From Solimonas aquatica (GTDB lineage Bacteria > Pseudomonadota > Gammaproteobacteria > Nevskiales > Nevskiaceae): a stretch of 64,000 nucleotides of DNA. The stretch's first letter is position 1. Each line of letters starts with the position of its first letter. The DNA is taken from assembly GCF_900111015.1 (NCBI RefSeq), contig NZ_FOFS01000007.1, positions 1 through 64,000 on the forward strand, in the 5' to 3' direction. Of the stretch, positions 1,372 to 54,207 are shown piece after piece. The position numbers were made by a program, and so were the translations under genes. The notes under the pieces are model-generated. The model did no database searches and had not been told where the DNA came from. It was given only the letters and a program-made list of their open reading frames with translations.

Positions 1372-2496
1372 ATGACCGACTACTTCAAATACCTGCTGTC
1401 GCCGCTGATTCTGGCCGCGCATGGCTACGGCCTCTATCTGGGCGGCGTCTATGCCTGGACCGGCCTGGCGCTGCTGCTCGGCGTGCTGCTGTTCGACGCC
1501 TTCCTGCCGCGCGACTACACGATGCGCGATCAGCGCTATGTGCGCATCTACGATGTGATCTGCGCGGTCACGGTGCTGTGCAGCTTCGCCAACATCTTCT
1601 TCTATGCCTATCTGGTGGGCCACGGCCACTTCAGCGGCACGAGTCAGCTCGGCGCCTTCCTGAGCATGATGTTCGTGGGCTTCGTGATCGGCGCGCCGCC
1701 GGTGCACGAGCTGTTTCACCGCGAGGAGTTCGTGCTGCGCTGGCTGGGCCGCATCGGCCAGTGCCTGATCTTCGATCCCTGGCGCGAGATCACGCACGTG
1801 GTCACCCACCACATGCGCGTGGCCACGCCCGATGATCCGGATTACGCGCGGCGCGGCGACACCGTCTACGGCCACATCCTGCGCACCTTTCCGGGACAGT
1901 GGAAGGAGTCCTATCACCTGGAAAAGATGATGTGGACCAAGCGCGGTCGCCGCTGGTACGACCTGCGCAATGCCTGGGTGTACAAGGCCGCCACCCTGCT
2001 GAGCTTCACGGCGCTGCTCTGCGCACTGGGCGGCGCGTATGGCGCGCTGCTGGCCATCGCCAGCCTGCTGCTGGGGCCGCGCATGATGCTGGAGGTTTTC
2101 AACTACGTGAATCACTACGGCCTGGTCTCGGCCACGCCGGGCCGCTTCGAAAAGCGCCACACCTGGAATCACATCACCCCGCTGACGCGCATCCTGGCGC
2201 TGGAGATCACCAATCACGCCGGGCATCACGAAGACAGCTACAAGCCCTTCTACAAGCTGGAGCCGGATCGCAACGGGCCGGTGCAGCCGCAGTTCCTGCT
2301 GGTGGTGCTGCTGGCCCTGGTGCCGCCGCTGTTCTTCATGATGATCAAGCCCCTGCTCAAGCACTGGGACATGCATTACGCCTCACCGCAGGAGCGCGAG
2401 ATCGCGCGCCGCGAGAACGAGCGCGCCGGCTGGCTGGAGCTCAATCGCCCGGACCCGCAGCGCGATCTGCCGGCCGGCATCTGGTCGGCGGCCTGA
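1372..2496 (+). CDS. XylM/AlkB-like membrane di-iron hydroxylase
   Basis: A 374-residue integral-membrane non-haem di-iron monooxygenase of the alkane hydroxylase/xylene monooxygenase group, expected to hydroxylate a terminal or benzylic methyl group in the inner membrane. Histidine boxes are visible: HELFHRE at about 112-118, THVVTHH at 141-147, NYVNHYG at 244-250 (the HYG box) and NHAGHH at 281-286. Hydrophobic segments lie near residues 8-45, 60-82, 95-110, 205-240 and 300-320. The start at 1372 is preceded by GGGGAG; an ATG at 1348 would add eight poorly conserved residues. The next gene, 19 bases on, encodes a ferredoxin-reductase of XylA architecture. That pairing favours a XylM/CymA-type enzyme over classical AlkB, which uses rubredoxin. 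The substrate cannot be read from the sequence; downstream beta-oxidation genes suggest that the oxidised product enters CoA chemistry. Confidence 0.88.
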   Translation: MTDYFKYLLSPLILAAHGYGLYLGGVYAWTGLALLLGVLLFDAFLPRDYTMRDQRYVRIYDVICAVTVLCSFANIFFYAYLVGHGHFSGTSQLGAFLSMMFVGFVIGAPPVHELFHREEFVLRWLGRIGQCLIFDPWREITHVVTHHMRVATPDDPDYARRGDTVYGHILRTFPGQWKESYHLEKMMWTKRGRRWYDLRNAWVYKAATLLSFTALLCALGGAYGALLAIASLLLGPRMMLEVFNYVNHYGLVSATPGRFEKRHTWNHITPLTRILALEITNHAGHHEDSYKPFYKLEPDRNGPVQPQFLLVVLLALVPPLFFMMIKPLLKHWDMHYASPQEREIARRENERAGWLELNRPDPQRDLPAGIWSAA

Positions 2497-2515
2497 ACAA
2501 GGAACACATTCCGTC

Positions 2516-3586
2516 ATGCTGTCTCCCGAGATGAACGCGCCAGAGGCGCGCCACGAGCGCTGCCGCATCACCGTGCGCGGCCGTGATGGCGAAGAGCAGA
2601 GTTTCGAGATCGGCCGCAACGAGCTGCTGCTCAAGGCCGCCATCGAGCAAGGCATAGACTATCCGCACAACTGCCGCGTCGGTGTCTGCGGCGCCTGCAA
2701 GACGCGCCTGCTGTCCGGACGCGTCAGTCCCATGGTGGATCTGGCGCTGTCGCCGCTGAGCAATGCGCAGATCGAAGACGGTTTCGTGCTCGCCTGCCAG
2801 GCCAAGGTGCGCAGCGACCTGCTGGTGGAAGCGCAGCTCGGCAGGCAGGCGCTGCTGCCGGTGTGCACGGTGTCCTCGCGCGTGACGCGCTGGCGCCGGC
2901 TGCCGGGCGAGGTCATCGATCTGCGCCTGAAGCTCGACACGCCGCTTCGTTATCACGCCGGGCAGTACGCCACGCTCGCCGAATCCGGCTCCTTCACGCG
3001 GCGCAGCTTTTCCTTCTACGACCCGCCGGGCGATCAGCCGGCGCAGGAAGTGGGCTTCCTGATCAAGCGCCTGCCGGGCGGCCGGTTTTCCGAATGGCTG
3101 TTCGAGCGTGATCGCAGCGGCATCAAGATCTGGCTGGAAGGCCCCTTCGGCGTGATGGGCGTGGACGATCCGGATCGCGACGCCCTGTGCGTGGCGGGCG
3201 GCACCGGCATCGCGCCGATTCTGTCCATCATCGGCGAGCGCCTGAAACGCAGCGCCCGTGCGCGCTTCACGCTCGTGTTCGGCGTGCGCACGCAGCAGGA
3301 TCTGTTTGCCGCGGAGTATCTGCAGGCGCTGCAGGCGCAGGCCGGCGAACGCCTGCGCGTGATCGACATCCTGTCGCACGAGCCGGCGCAATCCGGCTGG
3401 CGCGGCGCGCGCGGTCTGGTCACCGATGCGCTCGATGACCGCCTGGGCCTGGATTTTTCCGCGCAGGCGGCTTTCATCTGCGGCAACTACGGCATGGTCG
3501 AGGCCGTGGAGAAGAAGCTGCTGGCGCTGGGCGTGGCGCCGGAACGCATCCACGCCGACAAGTTCCTGCCTTCGGGCACGCCATAG
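2516..3586 (+). CDS. XylA-like ferredoxin-NAD(P)H reductase
   Basis: A 356-residue electron-transfer protein that passes electrons from NAD(P)H via FAD and a plant-type [2Fe-2S] centre to the hydroxylase upstream. The N-terminal ferredoxin domain has cluster ligands Cys53, Cys58, Cys61 and Cys94 (C-x4-C-x2-C-x32-C). The FAD domain shows RRSFS at 161-165, and the nucleotide-binding domain shows GGTGIAP at 227-233. Length and domain order match XylA and p-cymene monooxygenase reductase (about 350 residues). AAGGAA at 2499-2504 supports the ATG at 2516; a second ATG lies five codons later. Closely follows the hydroxylase gene and is almost certainly cotranscribed with it. The family assignment is firm; the partner is inferred from position. 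Confidence 0.9.
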   Translation: MLSPEMNAPEARHERCRITVRGRDGEEQSFEIGRNELLLKAAIEQGIDYPHNCRVGVCGACKTRLLSGRVSPMVDLALSPLSNAQIEDGFVLACQAKVRSDLLVEAQLGRQALLPVCTVSSRVTRWRRLPGEVIDLRLKLDTPLRYHAGQYATLAESGSFTRRSFSFYDPPGDQPAQEVGFLIKRLPGGRFSEWLFERDRSGIKIWLEGPFGVMGVDDPDRDALCVAGGTGIAPILSIIGERLKRSARARFTLVFGVRTQQDLFAAEYLQALQAQAGERLRVIDILSHEPAQSGWRGARGLVTDALDDRLGLDFSAQAAFICGNYGMVEAVEKKLLALGVAPERIHADKFLPSGTP

Positions 3587-3659
3587 CGTGAACAGGCCCT
3601 AAACACTTTCCTGTGCCGCGCGCCTGCGCGGCTTCATCTATCCAGCGGAGACTCCAGCC

Positions 3660-4865
<1,206 letters not shown>

Positions 4866-4874
4866 GCCTCTGCC

Positions 4875-6998
4875 ATGGTCAAGACCCAAATCCAGAACGG
4901 TATCGCGCATCTGTCGATCGACATGCCCGGCCGCTCCATGAACGTGCTGGAGCCGGCGGTGGCCGCCGCGCTCTCGGCCGCCTTCGAAAGCGTGCTGGCC
5001 GATGCCGGCGTGCAAGGCATCGTCATCAGCTCGGCCAAGGGCAGCTTCATCGCCGGCGCGGATCTGGCGCAGATGGAAGCCCTGGCCGCGCCCGGCGTGA
5101 GTCTGGCGCAGGCCGCCGCGCGCATCGCCTATCTCGGCGATTTCTTCCGGCGCATCGAAACCTGCGGCAAGCCGGTGGTCGCCGCGGCCAGCGGCACGGC
5201 GCTGGGCGGCGGCCTGGAGCTGATGCTGGCCTGCCATTACCGCATCGCCGCCGACCATCCCAAGGCGCAGTTCGGTCTGCCGGAAGTGAAGCTCGGCCTG
5301 CTGCCCGGCGCCGGCGGCACGCAGCGCGTGCCGCGTCTGATCGGCATCCAGGCCAGCATCGGCCTGCTCACCGGCGGCGCGCCCTTGTCGGCGCGCGAGG
5401 CGCAGAAGCTGGGCCTGCTCAATGAAGTGGTGCCAGCCGAACAGCTGCTCGCCGCCGCCGAAGCGGCGATCCGCGAAGGCCGCGTGCCGGCGCAGGCGCC
5501 CTGGGATGTGAAGGGCTACAAGCTGCCGGGCGGCGAGGCTTATGCACCGGCCAATGCCGCCGCGCTGATGAGCGCCACCAGCCGTCTGCACGCCGCCACG
5601 CGCGGCAACGAGCCGGCACCGCTGACCATCCTGCGTTGCATCCACGATGGCAGCAAGCTGCCCATCGCGCGCGCGCTGAAGCTGGAGCAGAAGTATTTCG
5701 CGACCCTGGTGCAGGGCCGTGTGGCCCAGAACCTGATCCGCACGCAGTTCTTCGCCAAGCAGGCCGCCGACAAGCTGTCGCGCCGTCCGGCCGCCGTGGC
5801 CAAGAGCAGCGTCAAACGCCTGGGCGTGCTCGGCGCCGGCTTCATGGGCCAGGGCATCGCGCAGGTGTCGCTGGCGGCCGGCATCGAGGTGGTGCTGGTG
5901 GATCGCGAGCTGGCCATCGCGCAGCGCGCGCGGGACGGCATCGCCGCCACCCTGCAGGCGGATGTGGACAAGGGCCGCCTGAAGCCCGAGGCGCGCGAGG
6001 CGCAGCTGGCGCGTCTGCATTGCGCCGCCGATCACGGCGGCTTTGCCGGCTGCGAGCTGGTGATCGAGGCGGTGCTGGAAGATTTCGCGGTGAAGGCGCA
6101 GGCCACCAGGCTCACGGAAGCGCAGCTGGCGGACAGCGCGATCTTCGCCTCCAACACCTCGGCCCTGCCCATCGACGAACTGGCAGCCGCCAGCGTGCGG
6201 CCGGCGAATTTCATCGGCCTGCATTTCTTCTCGCCGGTGCCGAAGATGGCGCTGGTGGAAATCATCATCGGCGCCAAGACCTCGGACGAGACCCTGGCGC
6301 GCGCCCTGGATTACTGCCAGCAGATCCGCAAGACGCCCATCGTGGTGCGCGATGGCTATGGCTTCTACACCACGCGCTGCGTGGATGCGTACGTGCGCGA
6401 AGGCATCCGCCTGCTCGCCGATGGCGTGGCGCCGGCGCTGATCGAAAACGCCGGTGTGGCCCTGGGCATGCCGGTGGGGCCGCTGGCGCTGGCCGATGAA
6501 GTGGGCATCGATGTGCTGCATCACATCGCGCACTTCTTCGCCTCGCGCGAGCACGGCGCCTGGGCCGAAGACCGTCATGCGGTGCCGAACGCGCAGATCG
6601 ACGCGCTGTATGCGGCGGGCCGCTACGGCCGCAAGCGCGGCGCCGGTTTCTACGATTACCCGGCCGGCGGTGCCAAGCAGCTGGCGGTGTCGCTGCCGCG
6701 CAATGAGGTGCAGCCGGACATGGCGGCGGTGCGCGAGCGCCTGCTCTACGCGCAGCTGGTGGAAGCGGCGCGCTGCTGGGCCGAGAACGTGGTGGAGGAT
6801 CTGCGCGAGGCCGATCTGGGCGCGACCCTGGGCTGGGCCTTCCCGCGCTACCTGGGCGGGCCGTTCGCGGCGATCGAGGACATCGGCCTTGCCAGCTTTG
6901 TGCAGAGCTGCGCGACGCTGAGCCGGACGCTGGGGCCGCGCTTCGAGCTGCCGGCGCGGCTGCGCGAGCGCGCCGCCGTCGCGCAGCACCTGACATGA
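4875..6998 (+). CDS. FadB/FadJ-like enoyl-CoA hydratase/3-hydroxyacyl-CoA dehydrogenase
   Basis: A 707-residue bifunctional beta-oxidation enzyme. Residues 1-190 are a crotonase domain with the two expected catalytic glutamates, Glu115 ([10 protein letters not shown]) and Glu137 ([16 protein letters not shown]). Residues about 315-500 are the NAD-binding dehydrogenase domain, starting with the Rossmann loop [13 protein letters not shown] and carrying the catalytic His450 in [11 protein letters not shown]. The C-terminal dehydrogenase fold runs to the end. The length equals the FadB/FadJ/peroxisomal multifunctional family. It starts nine bases after the thiolase stop and overlaps the next hydratase by four bases (ATGA), so this is one operon. 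No thiolase domain is present; that role is upstream. Confidence 0.95.
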
Positions 6999-7789
6999 GC
7001 CCGGATCTGGTGCGGCTGAGCGTGGATGCCGGCAGCGGCATCGCGCAGCTCTGCTTCAACCGTCCGGACAAGCTCAATGCCATCGATGTGCCGACCGCGC
7101 AGGCTTTCTGCGCGGCGGTGCGCGCCTTGCGCGACGATGCCCGCGTGCGCTGCGTGGTGCTGCGCGGTGAAGGGCGGGCGTTCGTGGCGGGCGGTGATGT
7201 CGCCGCTTTTGCCGCCAACTTCGAGGCCGCGCCGGCGCTGATCGATGCCCTGCTCGATGCGCTGAATCCGGCCATCGAGATCCTGCGCAGGATCGATGCG
7301 CCGGTGATTGCGGCGGTGCAGGGCTCGGTGGCCGGCGCGGGGCTGTCGCTGATGGCGGCCTGCGATCTGGTGGTGGCGGCCGAGGGCACCCGCTTTCTGA
7401 TCGCCTATGACCGTCTGGGCGCGCCGCCGGACTGCGGCGGCACGTACTTCCTGCCGCGCCGCATGGGGGCACGGCGCGCCGCCGAGATGTTCTTTTTGAG
7501 CCAGACCCTGGACAGCGCGGCGGCGCTGGAGGCTGGACTACTCAATCGGGTAGTGCCGCCGGCGCAGCTGGGGGATACCGTCGCGGAGCTGGCGCGGCAG
7601 CTGGCGGCCGGGCCCACGCGCGCCTACGGACACTACAAGCGCCTGAGCCTGCACAGCACGCAGCGCGATCTGCAGGCCCAGCTGCAGGCCGAGGGCGAAG
7701 CCTTCAAGGACGCCACGCGCACGCAGGACTTCCGCAGCGGCGTACGCGCCTTTCTCGACAAGCAGACGCCGCACTTCGAAGGTCATTGA
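6995..7789 (+). CDS. Enoyl-CoA hydratase/isomerase family protein
   Basis: A 264-residue crotonase-fold protein (one of four in the window). The CoA/oxyanion elements are FNRPDKLNAIDVP near the start, GEGRAFVAGGDVAAF near residue 65 and QGSVAGAGLSLMAACDLVV near 110. The second catalytic glutamate position, which reads PE in classical hydratases, is here DRLGAPPDCGGTYFLPR. The usual glutamate is replaced, so an isomerase, hydrolase or lyase role is as likely as hydration. The start overlaps the FadB-like stop by four bases, implying translational coupling. About 50 bases separate it from the next gene. Confidence 0.87.
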   Translation: MSPDLVRLSVDAGSGIAQLCFNRPDKLNAIDVPTAQAFCAAVRALRDDARVRCVVLRGEGRAFVAGGDVAAFAANFEAAPALIDALLDALNPAIEILRRIDAPVIAAVQGSVAGAGLSLMAACDLVVAAEGTRFLIAYDRLGAPPDCGGTYFLPRRMGARRAAEMFFLSQTLDSAAALEAGLLNRVVPPAQLGDTVAELARQLAAGPTRAYGHYKRLSLHSTQRDLQAQLQAEGEAFKDATRTQDFRSGVRAFLDKQTPHFEGH

Positions 7790-44903: not shown

Positions 44904-47207
44904 ATGGCCGACGCAGAGCAGTGGCACAAGACCGCCTGCATTCTGTGCAGCATCAACTGCGGTCTGGAGGTGCAGACCGGCGGCGAGGACGGCCGGCGCA
45001 TCGTCAAGATCCGCGGCGACGCCGAGCATCCCGCGTCCCGGGGCTATGTCTGCGAAAAATCGCAGCGCATGGACTACTACCAGAACGGTGCGGATCGTCT
45101 GCGCTCGCCGATGCGCCGTCGTGCCGACGGCAGCTACGAGGCGATCAGCTGGGAAGTCGCCATCCGCGAGATCGCCGCCAAATTCGGCGCCATCAAGACG
45201 CAGTACGGCAAGGAGGCGGTGCTGTTCTACGGCGGTGGCGGGCAGGGCAATCATGTCGGTGGCATGTATGCCGACAGCTTTCTCAAGGCCCTGGGCAATC
45301 CTTATCGCTCCAACGCGCTGGCGCAGGAGAAGACCGGCGAGTTCTGGGTGCAGGGCAAGATGCTGGGCACCGGCGTGCATCCCGACTTCGAGCATTGCGA
45401 GGTGGCGCTGTTCGTGGGCAAGAACCCCTGGCAGTCGCATGGCTTTGCGCGTGCGCGCGTGCTGCTCAAGGAGATCGCCAAGGATCCGGCGCGCTGCCTG
45501 ATCGTGATCGATCCGCGCCGCAGCGAAACCGCGGAAATGGCCGACATCCATCTCGCCATCAAGCCCGGCACCGACGCCTGGTGTCTGGCAGCGCTGATGG
45601 CGGTGCTGGTGCAGGAGGATCTGGTGGCCAGGGACTGGCTGGCTGAACACACACGCGGCTATGAGGCGGTGGCGCCCTATTTCAGCGGCATCGACATCGC
45701 CAGCTACGCGCAGGCTTGCGGGCTGGCGGAGCAGCAGATCCGCGACACCGCGCGGCGCATCGCTGGCGCGCGCAGCGTGGCGATGATGGAAGACCTGGGT
45801 CTGCAGATGAACCGCCATTCCACGCTGGGCAGTTATCTGCAGCGTCTGATCTGGCTGTCCACCGGTCATTACGCGCGGCCCGGCACCAACAACGCGCCGG
45901 TGCCCTTCCTGTCGCTGGCCAAGGCCAGCAAGGGCGAGACCAGCGCCAGGCGCGGCCCGCGCGTGGAGCGGCGCAGCCCGGTGGCCAATGCCAAGATCAT
46001 CATCGGTCTGGTGCCCTGCAATGTGATTCCCGAGGAGATCCTCAGCGATCATCCCAAGCGTTATCGCGCGATGCTGATCCACAGCGGCAATCCGGTGCAT
46101 TCCCTGGCCGACAGCCAGCGCATGCGTGAGGCGCTGCGCGCGCTGGAGCTGTCGGTGGTGGTGGATGTGGCGATGACCGAGACCGCACGCGAGGCGGACT
46201 ACGTGCTGCCGGCAGCGAGCCAGTTCGAGAAGGCCGAGGCCACCTTCTTCAATCTCGAATTTCCCGACAATGTCTTTCACCTGCGTCAGCCGCTGTTCGA
46301 GCCGCTGCCCGGCACGCTGCCGGAAGCGGAGATCTACGCGCGTCTGGTGGAAGCCATGGGCGAGCTGGGCGAGGCCGACTACGCGCCGCTGCGTCGCGCC
46401 CTGCGTTTCGGGCGCCTGGCCTTTGCGCTGCGCTTCATGATCGGCACGCTGCGCAATCCCAAGCTCGTGAAATACGCGCCGGTGATTCTGTATCGCACCC
46501 TGGGCGAGCGGCTGCCGCAAGGCATGGCTTCGGCCGCCGCGCTCTGGGGCGCGGCCTTGCTCTATGTGCAGGCCAGTCCGGCGACGGCGCGTGCGGCCGG
46601 CTTCGGCGGTCTGCTGCCGCTGGCGGCGGACAGGCTGTTCCAGGCCATCATCAGCCAGCCCTCGGGTGTGGTGTATGCACGTGCCACGCATGCGATGAGC
46701 TGGCAGGCGGTGGGTCATCCCGAACACCGGATCAATCTCAAGCTCGATGAGCTGCTCGCCGAGCTGCCCAAGCTCGACGCCATGCCGCCGCCGGTCGATG
46801 CCGACTATCCCTTCGTGCTCTCCGCCGGCGAGCGCCGCAGCGAAACCGCCAACACCGCCGTGCGCGACAGCAGCTGGCACAAGCGCGGCGTCTACGGCAG
46901 CCTGCGCATCAATCCGCAGGATGCGCGGCGGCTGGGTTGTGCCGACGGCGAACGCCTCTTGCTGCGCACGCGGCGCGGCAGTGCCGAAGTGATTGCCGAA
47001 CTCTCCGACAGCCTGCAGCCCGGGCATGTGTCGCTGCCCAACGGCCTGGGCCTGGACTATCGCGACGCCAGCGGCGCGCTGCTGCGCAAGGGCGTGGCGC
47101 CCAATGAACTCACCGATGCGCAGGCGCGCGATCCCTTCGCCGGCACGCCCTGGCACAAGCATGTGCCGGCGCGGCTGGAGCGTGTCGCGCAGGCGCTGAG
47201 TGCCTGA
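44904..47207 (+). CDS. Molybdopterin oxidoreductase (DMSO reductase superfamily)
   Basis: A 767-residue molybdenum enzyme. An N-terminal [4Fe-4S] motif, CILCSINC (Cys12-x2-Cys-x3-Cys) with a fourth Cys in GYVCEKSQRM near 50, leads to the molybdopterin domains (about 60-600): KTQYGKEAVLFYGGGGQGNH, CEVALFVGKNPWQSHGF and AREADYVLPAASQFEKAEAT. The C-terminal dinucleotide-binding barrel starts near RVYGSLRINPQDA. There is no Tat signal, so it acts in the cytoplasm. No electron-transfer subunits are adjacent. Resembles unassigned formate-dehydrogenase-like single-subunit enzymes; substrate unknown. Paired with HxlR upstream. Confidence 0.9.
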   Translation: MADAEQWHKTACILCSINCGLEVQTGGEDGRRIVKIRGDAEHPASRGYVCEKSQRMDYYQNGADRLRSPMRRRADGSYEAISWEVAIREIAAKFGAIKTQYGKEAVLFYGGGGQGNHVGGMYADSFLKALGNPYRSNALAQEKTGEFWVQGKMLGTGVHPDFEHCEVALFVGKNPWQSHGFARARVLLKEIAKDPARCLIVIDPRRSETAEMADIHLAIKPGTDAWCLAALMAVLVQEDLVARDWLAEHTRGYEAVAPYFSGIDIASYAQACGLAEQQIRDTARRIAGARSVAMMEDLGLQMNRHSTLGSYLQRLIWLSTGHYARPGTNNAPVPFLSLAKASKGETSARRGPRVERRSPVANAKIIIGLVPCNVIPEEILSDHPKRYRAMLIHSGNPVHSLADSQRMREALRALELSVVVDVAMTETAREADYVLPAASQFEKAEATFFNLEFPDNVFHLRQPLFEPLPGTLPEAEIYARLVEAMGELGEADYAPLRRALRFGRLAFALRFMIGTLRNPKLVKYAPVILYRTLGERLPQGMASAAALWGAALLYVQASPATARAAGFGGLLPLAADRLFQAIISQPSGVVYARATHAMSWQAVGHPEHRINLKLDELLAELPKLDAMPPPVDADYPFVLSAGERRSETANTAVRDSSWHKRGVYGSLRINPQDARRLGCADGERLLLRTRRGSAEVIAELSDSLQPGHVSLPNGLGLDYRDASGALLRKGVAPNELTDAQARDPFAGTPWHKHVPARLERVAQALSA

Positions 47208-47244: not shown

Positions 47245-48135
47245 TTACCAGATCACCTGAAAATCGCCGGAGAACTGCTGCAGGAAGTGCTCGGCCTGCT
47301 CGCCCTGCAGCATCGCCAGCGTCGACAGCACGCCGGCCTCGGTGCAGCTGCTGCCGGCGACGGTCACGCTGCGCGGTCCGCCCGGTACCGGCCAGCCGGT
47401 CCTGGGATTGAGGATGTGCGGATAGCGTTGGCCGTCCTTGAGCAGGAAGCGATGCGCATCACCGCTGGTGGCCACGCCGCCCTGGCGCAGGCGGATCAGG
47501 CTGCTGCTGGCGCCCAGGCCGCTGTCGATGCCCACCCGCCAGTCCTGGCCTTGTGCGCGCGGGCCGCTGGCGGCCAGATCGCCGCCGCAGTTGACCAGCA
47601 CCGCGTGTGAAGTCTGCGCCGCCAGCAGCGCGCAGGCGCGATCCACCGCGTACTCCTTGCCGATGCCGCCGAAGTCGATCTCCATGCCGGCCGGCATCTG
47701 CAGCTGCGGCGACTGCCAGTGCAGTTTCTGCCAGCCCACCAGCGGCAGCAGCGCCTCGATCTGCGATGGCGTGGGCACGCGATCCGAGCCGTCGAAGCGC
47801 CAGGCGCGGCGCAGCACGCCGGAGGTCACGTCGAACAGACCTTCGCTCAGCTCATGCAGCTGCTGCGCGTAATCGAGAAAGCGCGCCGTCTCCGCATCCA
47901 CCGTGATCGCCGCGCCCTGCGCGCGATTGATGCGATCGACGATATTGCCCGGCAGATAGCGGCTCCAGTGCTGCTCGATGCGCCAGACTTCTGCAGCCGC
48001 CAGCTCGCCCAGCCGGCGCAGCTCGGTGCGATCCGCACCATCGACCAGGACCTCGCAGGGCGAGGCCATGGCCGTGAAGCGCGCGACGAAGCCATCGCCG
48101 CCGGGCTCGATGCGGACGCTGCGGGTTTCGTTCAC
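47245..48135 (-). CDS. apbE: FAD:protein FMN transferase (ApbE family)
   Basis: A 296-residue ApbE-family enzyme that splits FAD and attaches FMN covalently to a Thr or Ser of a target protein. Family marks: FTAMASPCEVLVDG near residue 20, EIDFGGIGKEYAVDRACALL near 155, LVNCGGDLAASG near 185, and HILNPRTGWPVPGG with SSCTEAGVLSTLAML near 240-275. No signal peptide is seen, unlike the usual lipoprotein ApbE, so it may work in the cytoplasm or be exported by other means. Its ATG overlaps the DUF3570 stop by four bases. Last gene of a four-gene overlapping operon. Confidence 0.92.
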   Translation of the reverse strand: MNETRSVRIEPGGDGFVARFTAMASPCEVLVDGADRTELRRLGELAAAEVWRIEQHWSRYLPGNIVDRINRAQGAAITVDAETARFLDYAQQLHELSEGLFDVTSGVLRRAWRFDGSDRVPTPSQIEALLPLVGWQKLHWQSPQLQMPAGMEIDFGGIGKEYAVDRACALLAAQTSHAVLVNCGGDLAASGPRAQGQDWRVGIDSGLGASSSLIRLRQGGVATSGDAHRFLLKDGQRYPHILNPRTGWPVPGGPRSVTVAGSSCTEAGVLSTLAMLQGEQAEHFLQQFSGDFQVIW

Positions 48136-49433
48136 CAGTTGAAGCGGTACCCCATGCTGAGAATCACGGCGGACATGTCCGGTGCGGTCGGCAGACCCGA
48201 GTATGCCGCAGCGGCCTGCGCGGGAATATCACTGCTCTGGCCGCGCTGCTTGTAGTACTCCAGGCGCACGTTCCAGCTGTCGCCGTTGCGCAGCTGCTGG
48301 CCGAACTGCAGGCCGCCGGTCAGGCCGGTGAAGGCGCCCAGACGCGGATCGCCGCTGGCGTAGCGCAGGCCGGCATCCTCGCCACTGAACAGGGCGAAGT
48401 GGTAGAAGTCTGCGGCGTTCTGCCGGTAGAAGCGCAGGCTCGGCTGCAGATGGAAGGCTTCGGAGAAATTCCAGCGATAGCTCAGGCTCAGGGTGTGGGC
48501 ATTGATGCCCCAGCTGTCGGTGAAGAAGCGGTAGGAGAAATCCAGCACATCGCGATCAAAGGCAAAGCGCTTGTACTCGGCATAGAGCGCGTGCTTGGTG
48601 CGCTTGTCGGGGCGGCTTTCGTAGAGGTAGTAGAGCGGATTGGCATTGGCATCCACCACCGAGACCACCTTGTAGGGATCGGTCTGGTAGCCGCTGGACA
48701 GGCCCAGCGAGTAGTTCAGCTGCAGCAGGCTCTTGCTGTCCAGCACCTGCGTGACGCCCAGCAGCAGATCGACGAGGTTCTTGTTCTTGCTGCTGCCGCC
48801 CTCCTCATCGTCGCCGCCACCACCACCTGCGCCCATGTGCGACAGCGGCTGCGGCGCACCCCCCACCGGACGCACCTGATCGTATTCGAAGGACACACCG
48901 GCGCCGAGCGTGGTGTTCTTCTGGTTCAGGTCCAGGCTGTAATGCGCATTGGCACCGAAGGAGGTGAAGTCATACTCGCTGGAGCCGCGCAGGCCCAGGC
49001 CCAGCTTGCTGTCATGCGAGAGCGGAAACTGATAGCCCAGATTCGCCGCGACGCGCTGATCGTGGAAGGTATCGTCCAGCGGCGTCTTGCCGGCGGCCGT
49101 GGTGTAGGTCTGGCCGCCGCCGGAAGGCGAGGAGAAGGTCTGCGCCGTATGCGCCGGGGCGGCGCCATTGGGGCTGGCGCCGCTGAGGCTGTCGAACACC
49201 AGACCCGCCGACAGCAGACGCTCGCCGCCGAGATTGAAGCTGGCATTGAGCACCGGCTCGATGGCCTGCACGCGGCCATTGCCTTCCTTGTACAGCAGCA
49301 GCCCGGTATCGAAAGTCCAGGGCTTTTCCGGTGCGGCCGGTTCCTGCGCGGCAGCGGGTTTGACGCCGGCCACGCCGAGCAGGCTCAGCGTGGCGGCGGC
49401 CAGACGCAGGCGCTGTTGTTCGTTCAGTTGCAT
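48132..49433 (-). CDS. DUF3570 beta-barrel protein with flavinylation-like motif
   Basis: A 433-residue DUF3570 protein. A signal peptide ends near AAAQ (about 30). The rest alternates short polar and aromatic strands and ends SMGYRFNW, a typical outer-membrane beta-barrel end. Near the mature N-terminus, residues 81-87 read DSLSGAS (49173-49193), close to the ApbE target consensus (D-x-x-S/T-G-A-T/S), and are followed by PNGA. A Gly/Asp/Glu-rich loop (GAGGGGGDDEEGGS) lies near 205. It overlaps DUF4266 by 10 bases and ApbE by four. Function is not established for the family; I infer a surface or outer-membrane redox role. Confidence 0.85.
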   Translation of the reverse strand: MQLNEQQRLRLAAATLSLLGVAGVKPAAAQEPAAPEKPWTFDTGLLLYKEGNGRVQAIEPVLNASFNLGGERLLSAGLVFDSLSGASPNGAAPAHTAQTFSSPSGGGQTYTTAAGKTPLDDTFHDQRVAANLGYQFPLSHDSKLGLGLRGSSEYDFTSFGANAHYSLDLNQKNTTLGAGVSFEYDQVRPVGGAPQPLSHMGAGGGGGDDEEGGSSKNKNLVDLLLGVTQVLDSKSLLQLNYSLGLSSGYQTDPYKVVSVVDANANPLYYLYESRPDKRTKHALYAEYKRFAFDRDVLDFSYRFFTDSWGINAHTLSLSYRWNFSEAFHLQPSLRFYRQNAADFYHFALFSGEDAGLRYASGDPRLGAFTGLTGGLQFGQQLRNGDSWNVRLEYYKQRGQSSDIPAQAAAAYSGLPTAPDMSAVILSMGYRFNW

Positions 49434-49633
49434 CCGCAGCCTCCGCCGCCAAAGCCGCGGCCGCCGCTGGCGGCTTCCTTGCTGAAGTAGATGTGATCAT
49501 CCAGCTGCGCCTGCACCGGATCGGCTTCCAGCTGCATGTCGGGACGGGCCAGCGTGCCGCGCTGCCAGGGCTTCACGTTCGCGCAGGCGCTCAAGCCGGC
49601 CAGCAGCGCAAGGCTCCACAACAATCGGATCAT
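49424..49633 (-). CDS. DUF4266 small lipoprotein with Gly/Cys tail
   Basis: A 69-residue lipoprotein. The signal has a lipobox LSAC (Cys17). The mature part contains KPWQRGTLARPDMQ, then DDHIYFSKEAASGGRGF, and ends in GGGGCGCN. DUF4266 proteins accompany DUF3570 proteins; their role is unknown. The short cysteine-glycine tail could bind metal, form disulfides or be modified. Overlaps the thioredoxin-like gene by four bases and DUF3570 by ten, so expression is tightly coupled. Confidence 0.87.
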   Translation of the reverse strand: MIRLLWSLALLAGLSACANVKPWQRGTLARPDMQLEADPVQAQLDDHIYFSKEAASGGRGFGGGGCGCN

Positions 49634-50091
49634 GGCGTCTTTCCCAGCGCGGCGGTGATGGCGCTTTCGTATTGCGGAATCTCTTCTTCGCGAAAACCGG
49701 AGTGCTGATGCAGCACGCGGCCGTCGGCGCCCAGAATCAGCGCGCTGGGCATGCCGGCGATCTGGTAGTGATCGGCGAGTGCGCCCTTGGGGTCATAGGC
49801 CAGCGCGAACTGCGCCGGATGCTTTTCCAGAAAGCGCTGTGCGTCGGCCTGATGCTCATCGACATTGACCGCCAGCACCGTGAGCCGGTCACCGAAGCGC
49901 GACTTCAGGGCGTTGAGCCAGGGAAAGGACTGCGCGCAGGGCGCACACCAGGACGCCCAGAAATCCAGATAGATGATCTTGCCCTTGTAAGCGCTCAGCG
50001 CGGTGGGCAACTCGGCGGCCTGCGCCGGCAGTATCGCGCTGATCGCCAGCAGCAAAGCGGCAATCAGACCATGGGGGGCTGGCCTGCGCAT
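49630..50091 (-). CDS. TlpA-like periplasmic thioredoxin
   Basis: A 153-residue thioredoxin-fold protein. A signal peptide ends at AQAAE, and the active site FWASWCAPCAQSFPWL lies near 47-60 (WCAPC). The cis-proline loop is AGMPSALIL near 115. In the periplasm it would reduce disulfides or haem-ligand cysteines. First gene of the operon with the Cys-tailed lipoprotein, a natural candidate substrate. Upstream lies a response-regulator-like box at 50139-50155. Confidence 0.93.
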   Translation of the reverse strand: MRRPAPHGLIAALLLAISAILPAQAAELPTALSAYKGKIIYLDFWASWCAPCAQSFPWLNALKSRFGDRLTVLAVNVDEHQADAQRFLEKHPAQFALAYDPKGALADHYQIAGMPSALILGADGRVLHQHSGFREEEIPQYESAITAALGKTP

Positions 50092-50185: not shown

Positions 50186-53100
50186 TTAGTCGCGCAGCCA
50201 GCGCGCCGCCAGCGGCGGCACCAGCAGCAGGCTCACCAGTGTCGAAGACACCAGGCCGCCGAGAATCACCACCGCCATCGGGCCTTCGATCTCGTGGCCG
50301 CTCTGATGCAGCTGCGCGGCCACCGGTGCCAGCGCCAGTGCGGTGAGCAGCGCGGTGAGCAGCACCGGCGTCAGACGTTCTTCGGCGCCGCGCAGCGCGG
50401 TGTCCAGATTCCACGCGCAGCCTTCCACGCGCAGCAGATGCTGGTAGTGCGAAACCAGCAGGATGGTGTTGCGCGCGGCCATGCCGAACAAGGCCACGAA
50501 GCCCACCATCGAACCCAGACTCAGCGTGCCGCCGCTGAGCGCCACTGCCACCACGCCGCCAATCAGGGTGCTGGGCAGCGCCAACAAGACCAGCAACACC
50601 TGGCGGCTGTTGCCGAAGGCCAGGGCCAGCAGCAGCACGATCAGCAGCAGCGCCGCGCCGCTGTGCAGCAGCAACTCGCGCGCCGCCGCCTGCTCGGCCT
50701 GCGCCGAGCCGCCGTAACGCAGATACACGCCGGGCGGCAGCGCGATCTGCTGCGCAATCGCCGTCTGTGCGCGCTGCGCCCAGCCGCGCTGATCGCTCAC
50801 GGCGGGACTCGCGGTGACGATCTGCCGGCGCAGGCCGTCCTCATGGCTGATCAGGCTGCGCGCCGACACGGTCTGCAGCTCGGCCAGCTGCGAGAGCCGC
50901 AGCAGGCTGCCGTCGCCACCGTGAATCAGCAGCGTCTCCAGGGCCTGCGGTGAAGGCAGGAGACCGGATACCCGCAGGGTCAGCGGCAGGCTGCGGTCGG
51001 CTTCGCTGAGCTGCGTCACCACATGACCATGAAACGCGGCCTGCAGGGTCTCCAGCACCTCGGCGGCCTGCACCCCATGCAGGGACAGCTGCTCGGACTT
51101 CAGGCGCACGCTCAGCTCGCTCTGACGCGGCGGCAGCTTCACGCGCACATTGCCGGCATCCGGCAGGCTTTCCAGCAAGGCGGCGATCTGCGCCGCGACG
51201 CGATCATTGGCATCGAGATCCTGGCCGAACACGCTGACGAAGAACGGCGAGGACTCGCCGGCCAGGGTTTCGCCGATGCGCTCGGCCAGCACCGAGTAGA
51301 TCTCCACCAGCTGGTTGGGAAAGTCCTCGAACACCTCGCGCACGCCTGACTCGATCTCGTGCGTGGACAGCCCCGTGCTGCGGTCGATCTGGATCTCGAA
51401 CTCGCTCTTGTTGGGCAGGTCGGGGTCCTGGCCGTTTTCGGCGCGGCCGATCTGCTCGGCCACGCTCTTCACGCCGGGCAGCGCGGCCAGACGTTCGGAG
51501 ATGCGCTGGCCCACGCGCGCGGTTTCGGCAATCGCCACGCCGGGCCGCAGCGAGGCGTGCGCAATCAGATAGTCCTCGCGGAATTCCGGCAGCAGACGCG
51601 CGCCCAGCAGCGGCAGCAGCACCAGGCCCAGCGCGCTGGCGCCCAGCATCAGCAGCAGCACCAGCCGCGGCCGCGCATGCAGCGCGGTGATGATGCGCCG
51701 CTGCACCCGCTTGCAGCGTTTGAGAATGGGCGCTTCCTCGCGCGGCAGATGTTCGCGCATGGCCAGCGCGCACAGCGCCGGCGTGGCACTCATGGCCACC
51801 AGCAGCGAGATGCCCACCGCCAGCAGGAAGGCCACCGACAGCGGCCGGAAGAACGCGCCCTGCAGGCCGGAGAGCATGAGAATGGGCAGGAAGGCCACGG
51901 CCACGGCCGCCGTGGCGTAGAACACCGGCTGACGCACTTCCAGCGAGGCGGCGGTGAACAGCGCGCGGATGTCGAAGTCGCCGCTGATGGCGCGGCGCCG
52001 GCGCGTGATGTTCTCGACATCGATCACCGCATCGTCCACCACCACGCCCAGCGCCACCACCAGCCCGCCCAGGCTCATGGTGTTGAGGCTGAAGCCGAAG
52101 TTGTGAAGGATCCAGATGGTGGCCAGCAGCGACAGCGGAATGGCGCTGAAGGAGATCAGTGCGCCGCGCCAGTCGCGCAGCGTCAGCAGCAGCAGAATCA
52201 CCACCAGCAGCGCGCCGATCAGCAGCGAGTTGCGCAGCTTGCCGATGGCGCTTTCGATGAAGCTCGCCGGACGCAGCAGCGCCGGATGGTAGTCCACGCC
52301 CTGGCGCTTGAGCTGCGGTGCGATGGCGTTCAGGCGCTGCTCCAGCTCGCGCGTCACGTCCAGGGTGTTGGCGCCGAACTGCGTGGAAGTCTCCACCAGG
52401 ATGCCGGGCTTGCCGCCGATCATGGCATCGCCGAAGCGGGGCTCGGCGCCATCGCGGATATCCGCGATCTCGCCGAGCAGGATCGGCCCGCTGTCGCGCA
52501 TCGCCACCACCGCCTGCGCCAGCTGCTGCGTGGTGGCGCCGGGCCGCTGTGCCTGCAGCACCAGACGCTGCGTGGGCGTTTCCAGATAGCCGCCGCCGAT
52601 CAGCGCGGTGGCGCGACGCACGGACTCGGACACTTCACTCAGGCTCAGGCCGGCGGCGGCGAGCTTGAGTGGATCGAGGTGAATCTGCCGTTCGCGCGAC
52701 AGGCCGCCGAAGATCTGCGCCTGTGCCACGCCGGGCACCGCCATGATCTGCGGCTTGAGCGTCCAGCGCACCAGATCGCGCAGTTCCAGCGGCGAGAGCT
52801 TTTCGCTGGTGAAGCCGAAGTGCAGCAGATACTCCATCGAGGAACTCAGCGGCGAGAGCTGCGGCGGACTCACGCCTTCCGGCAGCAGGCCGGCGGCCTC
52901 GGCCAGGCGTTCGGTCACCACCTGCCGCTGCCGGTACGGATCGCCGCCGCGTTCGAACACCACCTGGATCGCCGACAGGCCCTGCGCGGAGTTGGAGCGC
53001 AGCGCGGCCAGGTTCTCGGTGCCGGCCAGCAGGTTCTCCAGCGGCCGCGTCACCAGCGCCTCCACCTGCTGCGCGTCCAGGCCCGGGGCCTCGGCCTGCA

Positions 53101-53245
53101 CCAGCACATGCGGCGGCGCGAAGTCGGGAAACACATCGAAGCGCGCCTGCAGCAGCGCGCCGGCGCCGAGCAGCGCAATCAGCAGCGACAGCGCGGTGAT
53201 GATGCGCGGATGCGCCAGCGAGGCGCGGACGATGGCGGCGAGCAT
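50186..53245 (-). CDS. CusA/CzcA-like RND efflux permease
   Basis: A 1019-residue inner-membrane RND pump. It has twelve helices in two sets, with the large periplasmic loops expected. FPDFAPPHVLVQAEAPGLDA near 35 and ALVTRPLE are typical of the heavy-metal-efflux branch. The fourth-helix motif reads VALGVVVDDAVIDVENITRR, with the proton-relay aspartates. Late GMAARNTILLVSHY lies near 930. I chose the ATG at 53245, which starts right at the first helix region. Third gene after an outer-membrane lipoprotein and adaptor. Metal cations are the likely cargo, but no metal-binding methionine cluster could be confirmed. Confidence 0.9.
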   Translation of the reverse strand: MLAAIVRASLAHPRIITALSLLIALLGAGALLQARFDVFPDFAPPHVLVQAEAPGLDAQQVEALVTRPLENLLAGTENLAALRSNSAQGLSAIQVVFERGGDPYRQRQVVTERLAEAAGLLPEGVSPPQLSPLSSSMEYLLHFGFTSEKLSPLELRDLVRWTLKPQIMAVPGVAQAQIFGGLSRERQIHLDPLKLAAAGLSLSEVSESVRRATALIGGGYLETPTQRLVLQAQRPGATTQQLAQAVVAMRDSGPILLGEIADIRDGAEPRFGDAMIGGKPGILVETSTQFGANTLDVTRELEQRLNAIAPQLKRQGVDYHPALLRPASFIESAIGKLRNSLLIGALLVVILLLLTLRDWRGALISFSAIPLSLLATIWILHNFGFSLNTMSLGGLVVALGVVVDDAVIDVENITRRRRAISGDFDIRALFTAASLEVRQPVFYATAAVAVAFLPILMLSGLQGAFFRPLSVAFLLAVGISLLVAMSATPALCALAMREHLPREEAPILKRCKRVQRRIITALHARPRLVLLLMLGASALGLVLLPLLGARLLPEFREDYLIAHASLRPGVAIAETARVGQRISERLAALPGVKSVAEQIGRAENGQDPDLPNKSEFEIQIDRSTGLSTHEIESGVREVFEDFPNQLVEIYSVLAERIGETLAGESSPFFVSVFGQDLDANDRVAAQIAALLESLPDAGNVRVKLPPRQSELSVRLKSEQLSLHGVQAAEVLETLQAAFHGHVVTQLSEADRSLPLTLRVSGLLPSPQALETLLIHGGDGSLLRLSQLAELQTVSARSLISHEDGLRRQIVTASPAVSDQRGWAQRAQTAIAQQIALPPGVYLRYGGSAQAEQAAARELLLHSGAALLLIVLLLALAFGNSRQVLLVLLALPSTLIGGVVAVALSGGTLSLGSMVGFVALFGMAARNTILLVSHYQHLLRVEGCAWNLDTALRGAEERLTPVLLTALLTALALAPVAAQLHQSGHEIEGPMAVVILGGLVSSTLVSLLLVPPLAARWLRD

Positions 53246-53259
53246 GGGATCGGAAATTT

Positions 53260-54207
53260 TTAGTCGTCGTCGTCTTCGGCCTGCACGCCGGACAGGCCCT
53301 GCAGCGACCACAGCACGCCGGCGCCGCGCACCACGATGCGGTCCGTCGCCTTGAGGCCTTGCACGCGCCAGAGGCCGTCCTCGGCGCCCAGCACCCGCAC
53401 CGGCACTGCGGCGTACTGTGCGCGCTGCTGCGCATCGCGCTGCGGCAGCTGCCGGTACACATAGCTGCCGCCGGCTTCAAAGATCAGCGCCTCCCCCGGC
53501 ACCAGCAGCGCGGCCTCGTCCGCTTGCTGCAGCTGTACCGCGACGCGCGAGCCGGCCGCCAGGGGCAGCGGGGCGTGCTCCAGCATCAGCAGCAGGCCGG
53601 CGCCGCGCAGTGCGCTCTGTGCCTGCGGCAGATGGCCCAGCACCTGCGCCGGCAGGTTCAGGCCGTCGAGCTGCACCGAGGCGCCGCGCGGCAGGCCGCC
53701 GGGCAGGCCGCTGCCGGGCAGCTCGGCGCGGATCAGCACGCTGCGCGCGCCGAGCAGCTCCACAGCAAGCTGCGCACGCTGGGCGCTGCTGCGCGCGGCC
53801 AGCGGTCCCCAGCGCTGCGTGAAGCCCGCCAGCTGCGTCTGCGCTTCGCCGCGCGCCTGCGCCGCGGCGGCCTCGGCCTGCTGCACGGCGCGCAGGGAAG
53901 CGTCGCCTTCACTGTCATGCAGCGCGCGCAGACGGCTCAGCTCGGTCTGCGCCAGCTGCGCGCTGTTCTGCGCGGCGCTGAGCTGATTGCTGTCGGCGAC
54001 GAAGGCGGCGGCGTCCAGCACCAGGCCATAGGCGGCCTGGCTGCGCCGTGACTGCGCCGCATGCGGCGTGGCCAGGTGCAGATCCACGGCCTGCTGCTGG
54101 CGCGCGCTCAGCGCGGCCGGAGGCTGCGGGCTCGGCGGGCCTGCGGCCAGCGCCGCTCTCAGGCCGCACAGACCCAGCAGCAGAAACGCGATGCGCGTCG
54201 CCATCAT
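53260..54207 (-). CDS. RND membrane-fusion (adaptor) protein
   Basis: A 315-residue periplasmic adaptor. A signal peptide ends near ALAAG, followed by a lipoyl/hairpin region rich in Ala/Gln (about 60-150, coiled coil) and a beta-domain with ADEAALLVPGEALIFEAGGS near 235. The protein ends in an acidic run, AEDDDD. Shorter than most adaptors. The start overlaps the outer-membrane gene stop (ATGA); a second ATG follows at once. It links the outer-membrane channel to the pump. Confidence 0.85.
   Translation of the reverse strand: MMATRIAFLLLGLCGLRAALAAGPPSPQPPAALSARQQQAVDLHLATPHAAQSRRSQAAYGLVLDAAAFVADSNQLSAAQNSAQLAQTELSRLRALHDSEGDASLRAVQQAEAAAAQARGEAQTQLAGFTQRWGPLAARSSAQRAQLAVELLGARSVLIRAELPGSGLPGGLPRGASVQLDGLNLPAQVLGHLPQAQSALRGAGLLLMLEHAPLPLAAGSRVAVQLQQADEAALLVPGEALIFEAGGSYVYRQLPQRDAQQRAQYAAVPVRVLGAEDGLWRVQGLKATDRIVVRGAGVLWSLQGLSGVQAEDDDD

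Follow-up and report, generated by a model that had tools for sequence, protein, structure and literature searches.

How can a flavin come to be bound covalently to a protein of the outer membrane when the transferase encoded beside it carries no signal peptide? The question is raised by an operon of four genes in a stretch of 64,000 nucleotides from Solimonas aquatica (the window: contig NZ_FOFS01000007.1, positions 1 to 64,000), encoding a thioredoxin-like protein (Trx), a small DUF4266 lipoprotein, a DUF3570 protein and an ApbE flavin transferase. The reading that we favour, and hold to be fairly probable, is that these proteins form an outer-membrane flavin-thiol redox unit, with the leaderless ApbE loading flavin mononucleotide (FMN) onto the barrel-forming DUF3570 protein in the cytoplasm, before export through the general secretory (Sec) pathway.

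The operon, with its overlapping genes and its flavinylation motif, was first described in an earlier note made from the sequence alone, and is confirmed. The genes, all on the minus strand, overlap by 4, 10 and 4 bases as claimed (49630-49633, 49424-49433 and 48132-48135), and Pfam places the products in the four families named there (ApbE, E = 1.9e-69; DUF3570, 7.5e-125; DUF4266, 8.5e-25; Redoxin, 2.9e-17).

Published gene sets and sampling of relatives

The window operon is a member of a gene-set type already published by Meheust et al. 2021 (PMC8238504), who counted 316 flavinylation clusters of ApbE, DUF3570, thioredoxin and DUF4266 (the DsbD type) and left the function of the system open, with iron as a hint. 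Shared with these clusters are the four families, the CxC tail of DUF4266 and the SGA[ST]-type motif of DUF3570. They differ in that the ApbE-associated DUF3570 proteins of that paper have two motifs, whereas the window protein has one, and in that the published clusters carry DsbD, while none adjoins the window operon. The earlier note's proposal, an outer-membrane flavoprotein accompanied by a Cys-tailed lipoprotein and by a thioredoxin, is supported by motif conservation, by a 16-strand barrel model and by the published flavinylation of a DUF3570 protein; that such gene sets were in print was not known to its author. The passages of PMC8238504 consulted do not discuss the missing signal peptide of DUF3570-linked ApbE, the catalytic residues of ApbE or the topology of the barrel. 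We found in print neither the leaderless ApbE class with its Glu/Gly exchange, nor its pairing with particular DUF3570 clades, nor an outer placement of FMN, in a comparison that covers passages of that paper's text; its figures and supplements may record the missing signal.

Relatives were collected by profile search of 274 genomes of the window's class, evenly drawn, of which 71 have DUF3570; regions around the DUF3570 genes were taken from 69 of the 71, leaving out G076 and G136, which gave partial hits. To these were added 80 loci from named genomes, the best 80 of 519 relatives; within these best 80, the nearest by identity include Nevskiales, Sinimarinibacterium, Polycyclovorans and Solimonas. 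Alignments for modelling were picked by hand (A2, the window and 19 loci; A3, the window and 51 of the 80 added loci), omitting cut or over-extended open reading frames (ORFs). Length floors for DUF3570 ORFs were 150 amino acids for the Fisher table of motif against ApbE, 250 for the motif counts and 300 for the tree; ApbE ORFs under 200 amino acids were excluded from the signal scan and the residue table. The prevailing gene order in the sampled loci is Trx-DUF4266-DUF3570-ApbE, with ApbE distant or absent in many of them. Between DUF4266 and DUF3570 the commonest overlaps are 16 bases (counted from the most upstream start, 48 cases) and 10 bases (32 cases).

The flavinylation motif of DUF3570

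The motif DSLSGAS lies at residues 81-87, as the earlier note had it. Alignment, the check it had called for, finds D..[ST]G[AS][ST] at this site in 108 of 113 distinct A-type DUF3570 proteins (profile E below 1e-80 and an ORF of 250 amino acids or more), and strict GA in 98; with the site so conserved, chance was rejected as its origin. The reservation that the motif ends in Ser falls away, as the 108 fitting proteins end in Ser in 81 cases and in Thr in 27. The exceptions come from loci L057, L064, L137, L157 and L162. DSLSGAS is the only such site in the window protein; at the second place, SGA[ST] is found in 2 of the 113 A-type proteins.

The DUF3570 protein of Chlorobium luteolum was flavinylated when co-expressed with its ApbE in Escherichia coli; most of the flavinylated protein ended up in the cell pellet, purification was under denaturing conditions, and its cloning is described as 'similar' to that of a signal-truncated pair (PMC8238504). 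The reaction presumably took place in the cytoplasm. From the conserved motif and this precedent, we infer that the window protein is flavinylated at Ser87.

An ApbE class without signal peptide

Scored with the A2 profile, the ApbEs linked to DUF3570 fall into a single class: those of full length reach at least 263 bits and two partial genes 234 and 201, while the best other ApbE scores 194.5. The Trx, DUF4266 and DUF3570 proteins look exported, but ApbE does not. As the earlier note had remarked, the window ApbE has no visible signal peptide, and there is no room for one, GTG 48135 being the most upstream start of the frame. A single crude test over every possible start, the same for all four families, flagged as signal-like 148 of 155 Trx relatives, 156 of 164 DUF4266 relatives and 137 of 172 DUF3570 relatives, and two of the 109 ApbEs of the class. 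Both flagged ApbEs (L049 and L167) have over-extended starts, overlapping the DUF3570 gene by 433 and 133 bases. Among other ApbEs, six out of seven were flagged. Judged from these sequences, the missing signal looks like a real, conserved feature of the class, and is the most interesting point of the operon.

The barrel might instead be flavinylated in the periplasm, by ApbE using an unrecognised export route or by another, exported ApbE. According to a review (PMC12052999), characterised ApbEs are mostly lipoproteins of the periplasm, and complementation of an ApbE knockout failed with one that lacked its first 20 residues and stayed in the cytosol. FMN addition to the unfolded barrel before its insertion is also conceivable. 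The window ApbE has neither the signal peptide nor the lipobox typical of those enzymes, this lack is conserved across its class, and the genome of the window (98.4% complete) has three ApbE matches, none with a signal peptide. We therefore rate periplasmic flavinylation as rather unlikely; with no exported ApbE detected in this genome, loading is most simply placed in the cytoplasm. The review (PMC12052999) also covers a cytoplasmic ApbE of Klebsiella pneumoniae, likewise without signal peptide; its substrate is a soluble cytoplasmic fumarate reductase, whereas that of the window ApbE would be a predicted exported barrel.

The third ApbE of the window's genome keeps the canonical Asp and has no signal peptide. 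It lies near an FMN_bind protein with a leader-like, twin-arginine N-terminus and a gene resembling PepSY (L213, 5002-6006 and 7423-8124), and a second such FMN_bind protein lies on contig C25 (L217, 1192-1743). Possibly, flavoproteins loaded beforehand are exported there by twin-arginine translocation.

The altered active site of ApbE

FmnB of Listeria monocytogenes, an ApbE that acts on a cell-surface lipoprotein, served as the reference. Aligned to it (PDB 7esa), the window ApbE has Ser224, His240 and Gly268, with a single offset, at the positions of Ser257, His273 and Asp301. The two enzymes thus share the family and the Ser and His of the active site, but FmnB has Asp301 and a Gly where the window ApbE has Gly268 and Glu161. 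In FmnB, Asp301 coordinates both Mg ions and is named, with His273 and Ser257, as the conserved centre (PMC8906456). Among 105 distinct members of the class, position 268 is Gly in all 104 that can be read (one has a gap) and position 161 is Glu in 104 and Lys in one; the seven other ApbEs aligned have Asp and Gly at these positions, respectively. Every one of the 105 members keeps Ser224 and His240, and 104 keep Asp186. The co-occurrence of Glu161 with Gly268, and the retention of the other three residues, suggest a moved ligand rather than decay; on sequence grounds, the acidic ligand may have shifted from the Asp301 position to Glu161. The model of the window ApbE is a confident one, with a predicted local distance difference test score (pLDDT) of 92.9.

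The class-wide exchange of the metal-binding Asp for Gly could also mean that the leaderless ApbE has lost its transferase function, serving as a chaperone or a handler of free flavin, and that the barrel is not flavinylated by it. This seems very unlikely, given the retained residues and the accompanying Glu161, and given the substrate motif in the A-type proteins, although four of its five exceptions adjoin a class ApbE.

The predicted barrel and the likely side of the flavin

The match to PF12094 takes in residues 10-431, the whole length of the DUF3570 protein (E = 7.5e-125). Its AlphaFold2 model (52 rows; pLDDT 87.7) has 16 long strands by manual count, and the 50 PDB matches listed by Foldseek are all outer-membrane barrels by title, with query template modelling (TM) scores of 0.31-0.45. 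The sequence ends in YRFNW, with a C-terminal aromatic residue, and the N-terminus is leader-like by eye, as in an outer-membrane barrel. The exported beta-barrel of the earlier note is supported by the confident model and the Foldseek matches; no PDB sequence matched the DUF3570 profile below E = 0.07.

In the model, the connections after odd strands are 4, 38, 2, 28, 28, 4, 29 and 21 residues long, and those after even strands 2 to 5. The predicted FMN site sits where strand 3 gives way to the 38-residue loop, and so is on the long-loop side. Outer-membrane barrels usually have both termini in the periplasm; with both ends there, the long-loop side would be the outside. At 62 positions, at least 96% of rows carry the same residue. 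The long-loop side holds 54 of these and the opposite side 8; by its proportion of all positions (258 of 387), the long-loop side would hold about 41. Restricted to strand halves, the same positions number 24 versus 7, of 104 each.

At rank 45 of the Foldseek matches stands 6r2q_B ('Structure of the Mtr complex'), which we take to be MtrB. The Mtr porin-cytochrome conduit offers an analogy, and only that, for a barrel perhaps carrying electrons across the outer membrane: the TM-scores of the fold comparison are only 0.39 (query) and 0.28 (target), and the window operon, unlike Mtr, encodes no haem protein.

Thioredoxin and the DUF4266 lipoprotein

The CAPC active site of the window Trx is of the prevailing kind, the eight commonest C..C motifs among its relatives (n = 155) all being C-x-P-C. 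The description of the DUF4266 protein as a Cys-tailed lipoprotein is right by sequence, with the lipobox LSAC and a C-terminal CGCN. All 151 distinct relatives have CxC within the last 8 residues, and 141 end in CGCN.

Clades of DUF3570 and their pairing with ApbE

In a quick tree of 87 DUF3570 proteins, calculated with the motif columns omitted, clade A (37 rows) includes the window protein; clade B1 comprises 8 rows, two SGA[ST] sites being present in 7, and clade B2 has 37 rows, mostly with SSAS. Of the 71 genomes with DUF3570, 41 have the ApbE class, versus 1 of the 203 without. Within the former, the class occurs in 39 of the 40 genomes with clade A or B1 (the exception being G052) and in 2 of the 31 others, which include G076 and G136, counted there without a clade. 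The class thus pairs near-exclusively with clades A and B1, a contrast that is large although the sampled genomes are not independent. At the level of genes, a class ApbE is adjacent to 27 of 55 with a Gly motif versus 0 of 29 without (Fisher, 8e-7; 10 of 94 genes unclassified). The loss of the motif in B2 was dropped as proof of coupling to ApbE, as it falls mostly in one clade of the tree and gives no independent pairs. It is very unlikely that the flavin is incidental to a core machine of thioredoxin, DUF4266 and barrel working without FMN, as B2, which mostly keeps Trx and DUF4266 yet mostly reads SSAS, and the absence of class ApbE beside all 42 genes outside clades A and B1 might suggest, since 108 of 113 A-type proteins retain the motif, so that flavin is likely to be needed there.

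A second cluster of the four genes in the same genome (L072, G000:C27:1-14000) belongs to clade B1 and also has a leaderless ApbE. Its DUF3570 protein (5528-6736) has two motifs 11 residues apart, DSVSGAS and TTKSGAS, and a neighbouring gene encodes a long immunoglobulin-like protein with a weak cytochrome match. The B2 loci (most of L080-L113 and several of L194-L203), with SSAS for SGAS, have another conserved cluster of HZS_alpha-like lipoproteins, small outer-membrane barrels (one with SH3) and tetratricopeptide repeat proteins, the three commonest families being found in 26-27 loci; B2 is perhaps a flavin-free sister system. SGAS is kept without a class ApbE in B2 proteins of L079, L087, L108, L199, L201 and L203, a further ground for not taking motif loss as proof of coupling. 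An orphan class ApbE (L218, 7015-8064) occurs in a genome without detectable DUF3570 (G034), either as a relic or as an enzyme with some other substrate.

Proposed mechanism

Cytoplasmic loading of an outer-membrane flavoprotein, the reading preferred here, leads us to infer a course of events that runs from FMN on the window protein, through its timing and its side, to an electron path and an acceptor. In the cytoplasm, the leaderless ApbE would take FMN from flavin adenine dinucleotide (FAD) and attach it to Ser87 of the DUF3570 precursor. The loaded precursor would be exported by Sec and inserted by the beta-barrel assembly machinery as a 16-strand barrel, its FMN loop lying on the extracellular side or folded into the pore. 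The SecY pore is reported to open up to 2.4 nm for preproteins with rigid organic tails (PMC6028853). If FMN is on the outer side, its attachment must precede barrel insertion. The periplasmic thioredoxin would be fed by a DsbD-type protein encoded elsewhere; a DsbD_TM match exists in the genome (G000:C7:224401-225027), and a neighbour cluster with DsbD as representative lies less than 8 kb from the DUF3570 gene in 16 related loci. Thioredoxin and the CxC tail of DUF4266 would pass electrons to FMN, which may hand them to an outside acceptor, possibly a metal ion.

Several points weigh against this reading. The catalytic Asp is absent from the window ApbE, and FmnB lost most or all of its activity on exchange to Ala at Asp301 or at neighbouring metal-binding residues (PMC8906456). 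Four DUF3570 proteins depart from the motif and yet have a class ApbE adjacent (L057, IGAS; L137, TGPT; L157, TGGS; L162, TGNS). The wording on cloning in PMC8238504 leaves room for a signal peptide that had to be removed from the C. luteolum ApbE (ABB24423.1), in which case its activity would not speak for that of the leaderless class. The signal scan fails to flag 35 of the 172 DUF3570 ORFs, over-extended starts being present in some of these. The side assigned to FMN rests on general barrel rules, and mean identity does not differ significantly between outer and inner strand halves (p = 0.11). Lastly, DsbD is not among the eight window proteins scanned with Pfam.

A more detailed version is tentative and, in our view, open to real doubt: a class of cytoplasmic transferases, its acidic residue moved to a Glu by the FAD-contacting Lys, would load the barrel before Sec, and outer flavin, DUF4266 and thioredoxin would make up a haem-free transmembrane electron path. 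Were these proposals true, covalent FMN could be installed before Sec export, with no dependence on a periplasmic flavin supply; the Glu/Gly swap would mark a different catalytic arrangement from the single conserved Asp-Ser-His set ascribed to the family; and the barrel would be a candidate for a cytochrome-free electron route across the outer membrane.

Features of the operon, neighbouring genes and distant relatives

Table 1. Positions in the window of the four genes and of the residues discussed.
Feature	Positions	Strand	Basis
Exported thioredoxin-like protein, 153 amino acids	49630-50091	-	Pfam Redoxin/AhpC-TSA/Thioredoxin; N-terminal signal sequence
Thioredoxin active site CAPC, residues 49-52	49936-49947	-	
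DUF4266 lipoprotein, 69 amino acids	49424-49633	-	Pfam PF14086; lipobox LSAC; C-terminal GGGGCGCN
DUF3570 outer-membrane beta-barrel, 433 amino acids, predicted ApbE substrate	48132-49433	-	Pfam PF12094, AlphaFold2, Foldseek
Flavinylation motif DSLSGAS, residues 81-87, predicted FMN acceptor Ser87	49173-49193	-	Conservation in relatives
Ser104-Gly105, by alignment the place of the second SGA[ST] site in clade B1; here SPSGGG, not ApbE-type	49119-49124	-	Alignments
ApbE flavin transferase, 296 amino acids, GTG start, no signal peptide	47245-48135	-	Pfam PF02424, signal scan
Glu161 codon, beside Lys160 (FmnB Lys190, FAD-contacting, by alignment)	47653-47655	-	Alignment, residue table
Gly268 codon, position of FmnB Asp301 (Mg-binding, catalytic triad)	47332-47334	-	Alignment, residue table

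By Pfam, the operon lies downstream of a resistance-nodulation-division efflux pump gene of the AcrB family (50186-53311, minus strand) and is followed by a molybdopterin oxidoreductase gene on the opposite strand (44904-47207, plus strand). A near-identity search of plasmids gave no match.

In L161 (Glaciecola, 2368-7134) and L177 (Opacimonas, 3267-7124), the operon is preceded by a cupredoxin gene, identified by a Pfam match in L161 and by membership of the same cluster in L177, and by genes that cluster with sensor kinases and response regulators. The other proteins scanned in this upstream stretch have no Pfam match, except for an acyltransferase-like one in L161. These genes give a weak hint of metal chemistry. 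No count of two-component systems is given, because the neighbour cluster with histidine kinases, which spans 50 loci, lumps these together with response regulators and apparent GGDEF proteins.

Beyond the taxonomic class of the window, where the survey was uneven, the same type was found in L167, L145, L187 and L147 (by title Acidobacteria, Thermoanaerobaculia, Krumholzibacteriia and Rhodospirillaceae, respectively); the starts in L145 and L167 are over-extended, and L187 is cut by a contig end. In L034 (6491-9244) and L042 (5863-8550), DUF3570 is fused to a long Met/His-rich C-terminal half with MHMHM stretches, which looks metal-related.

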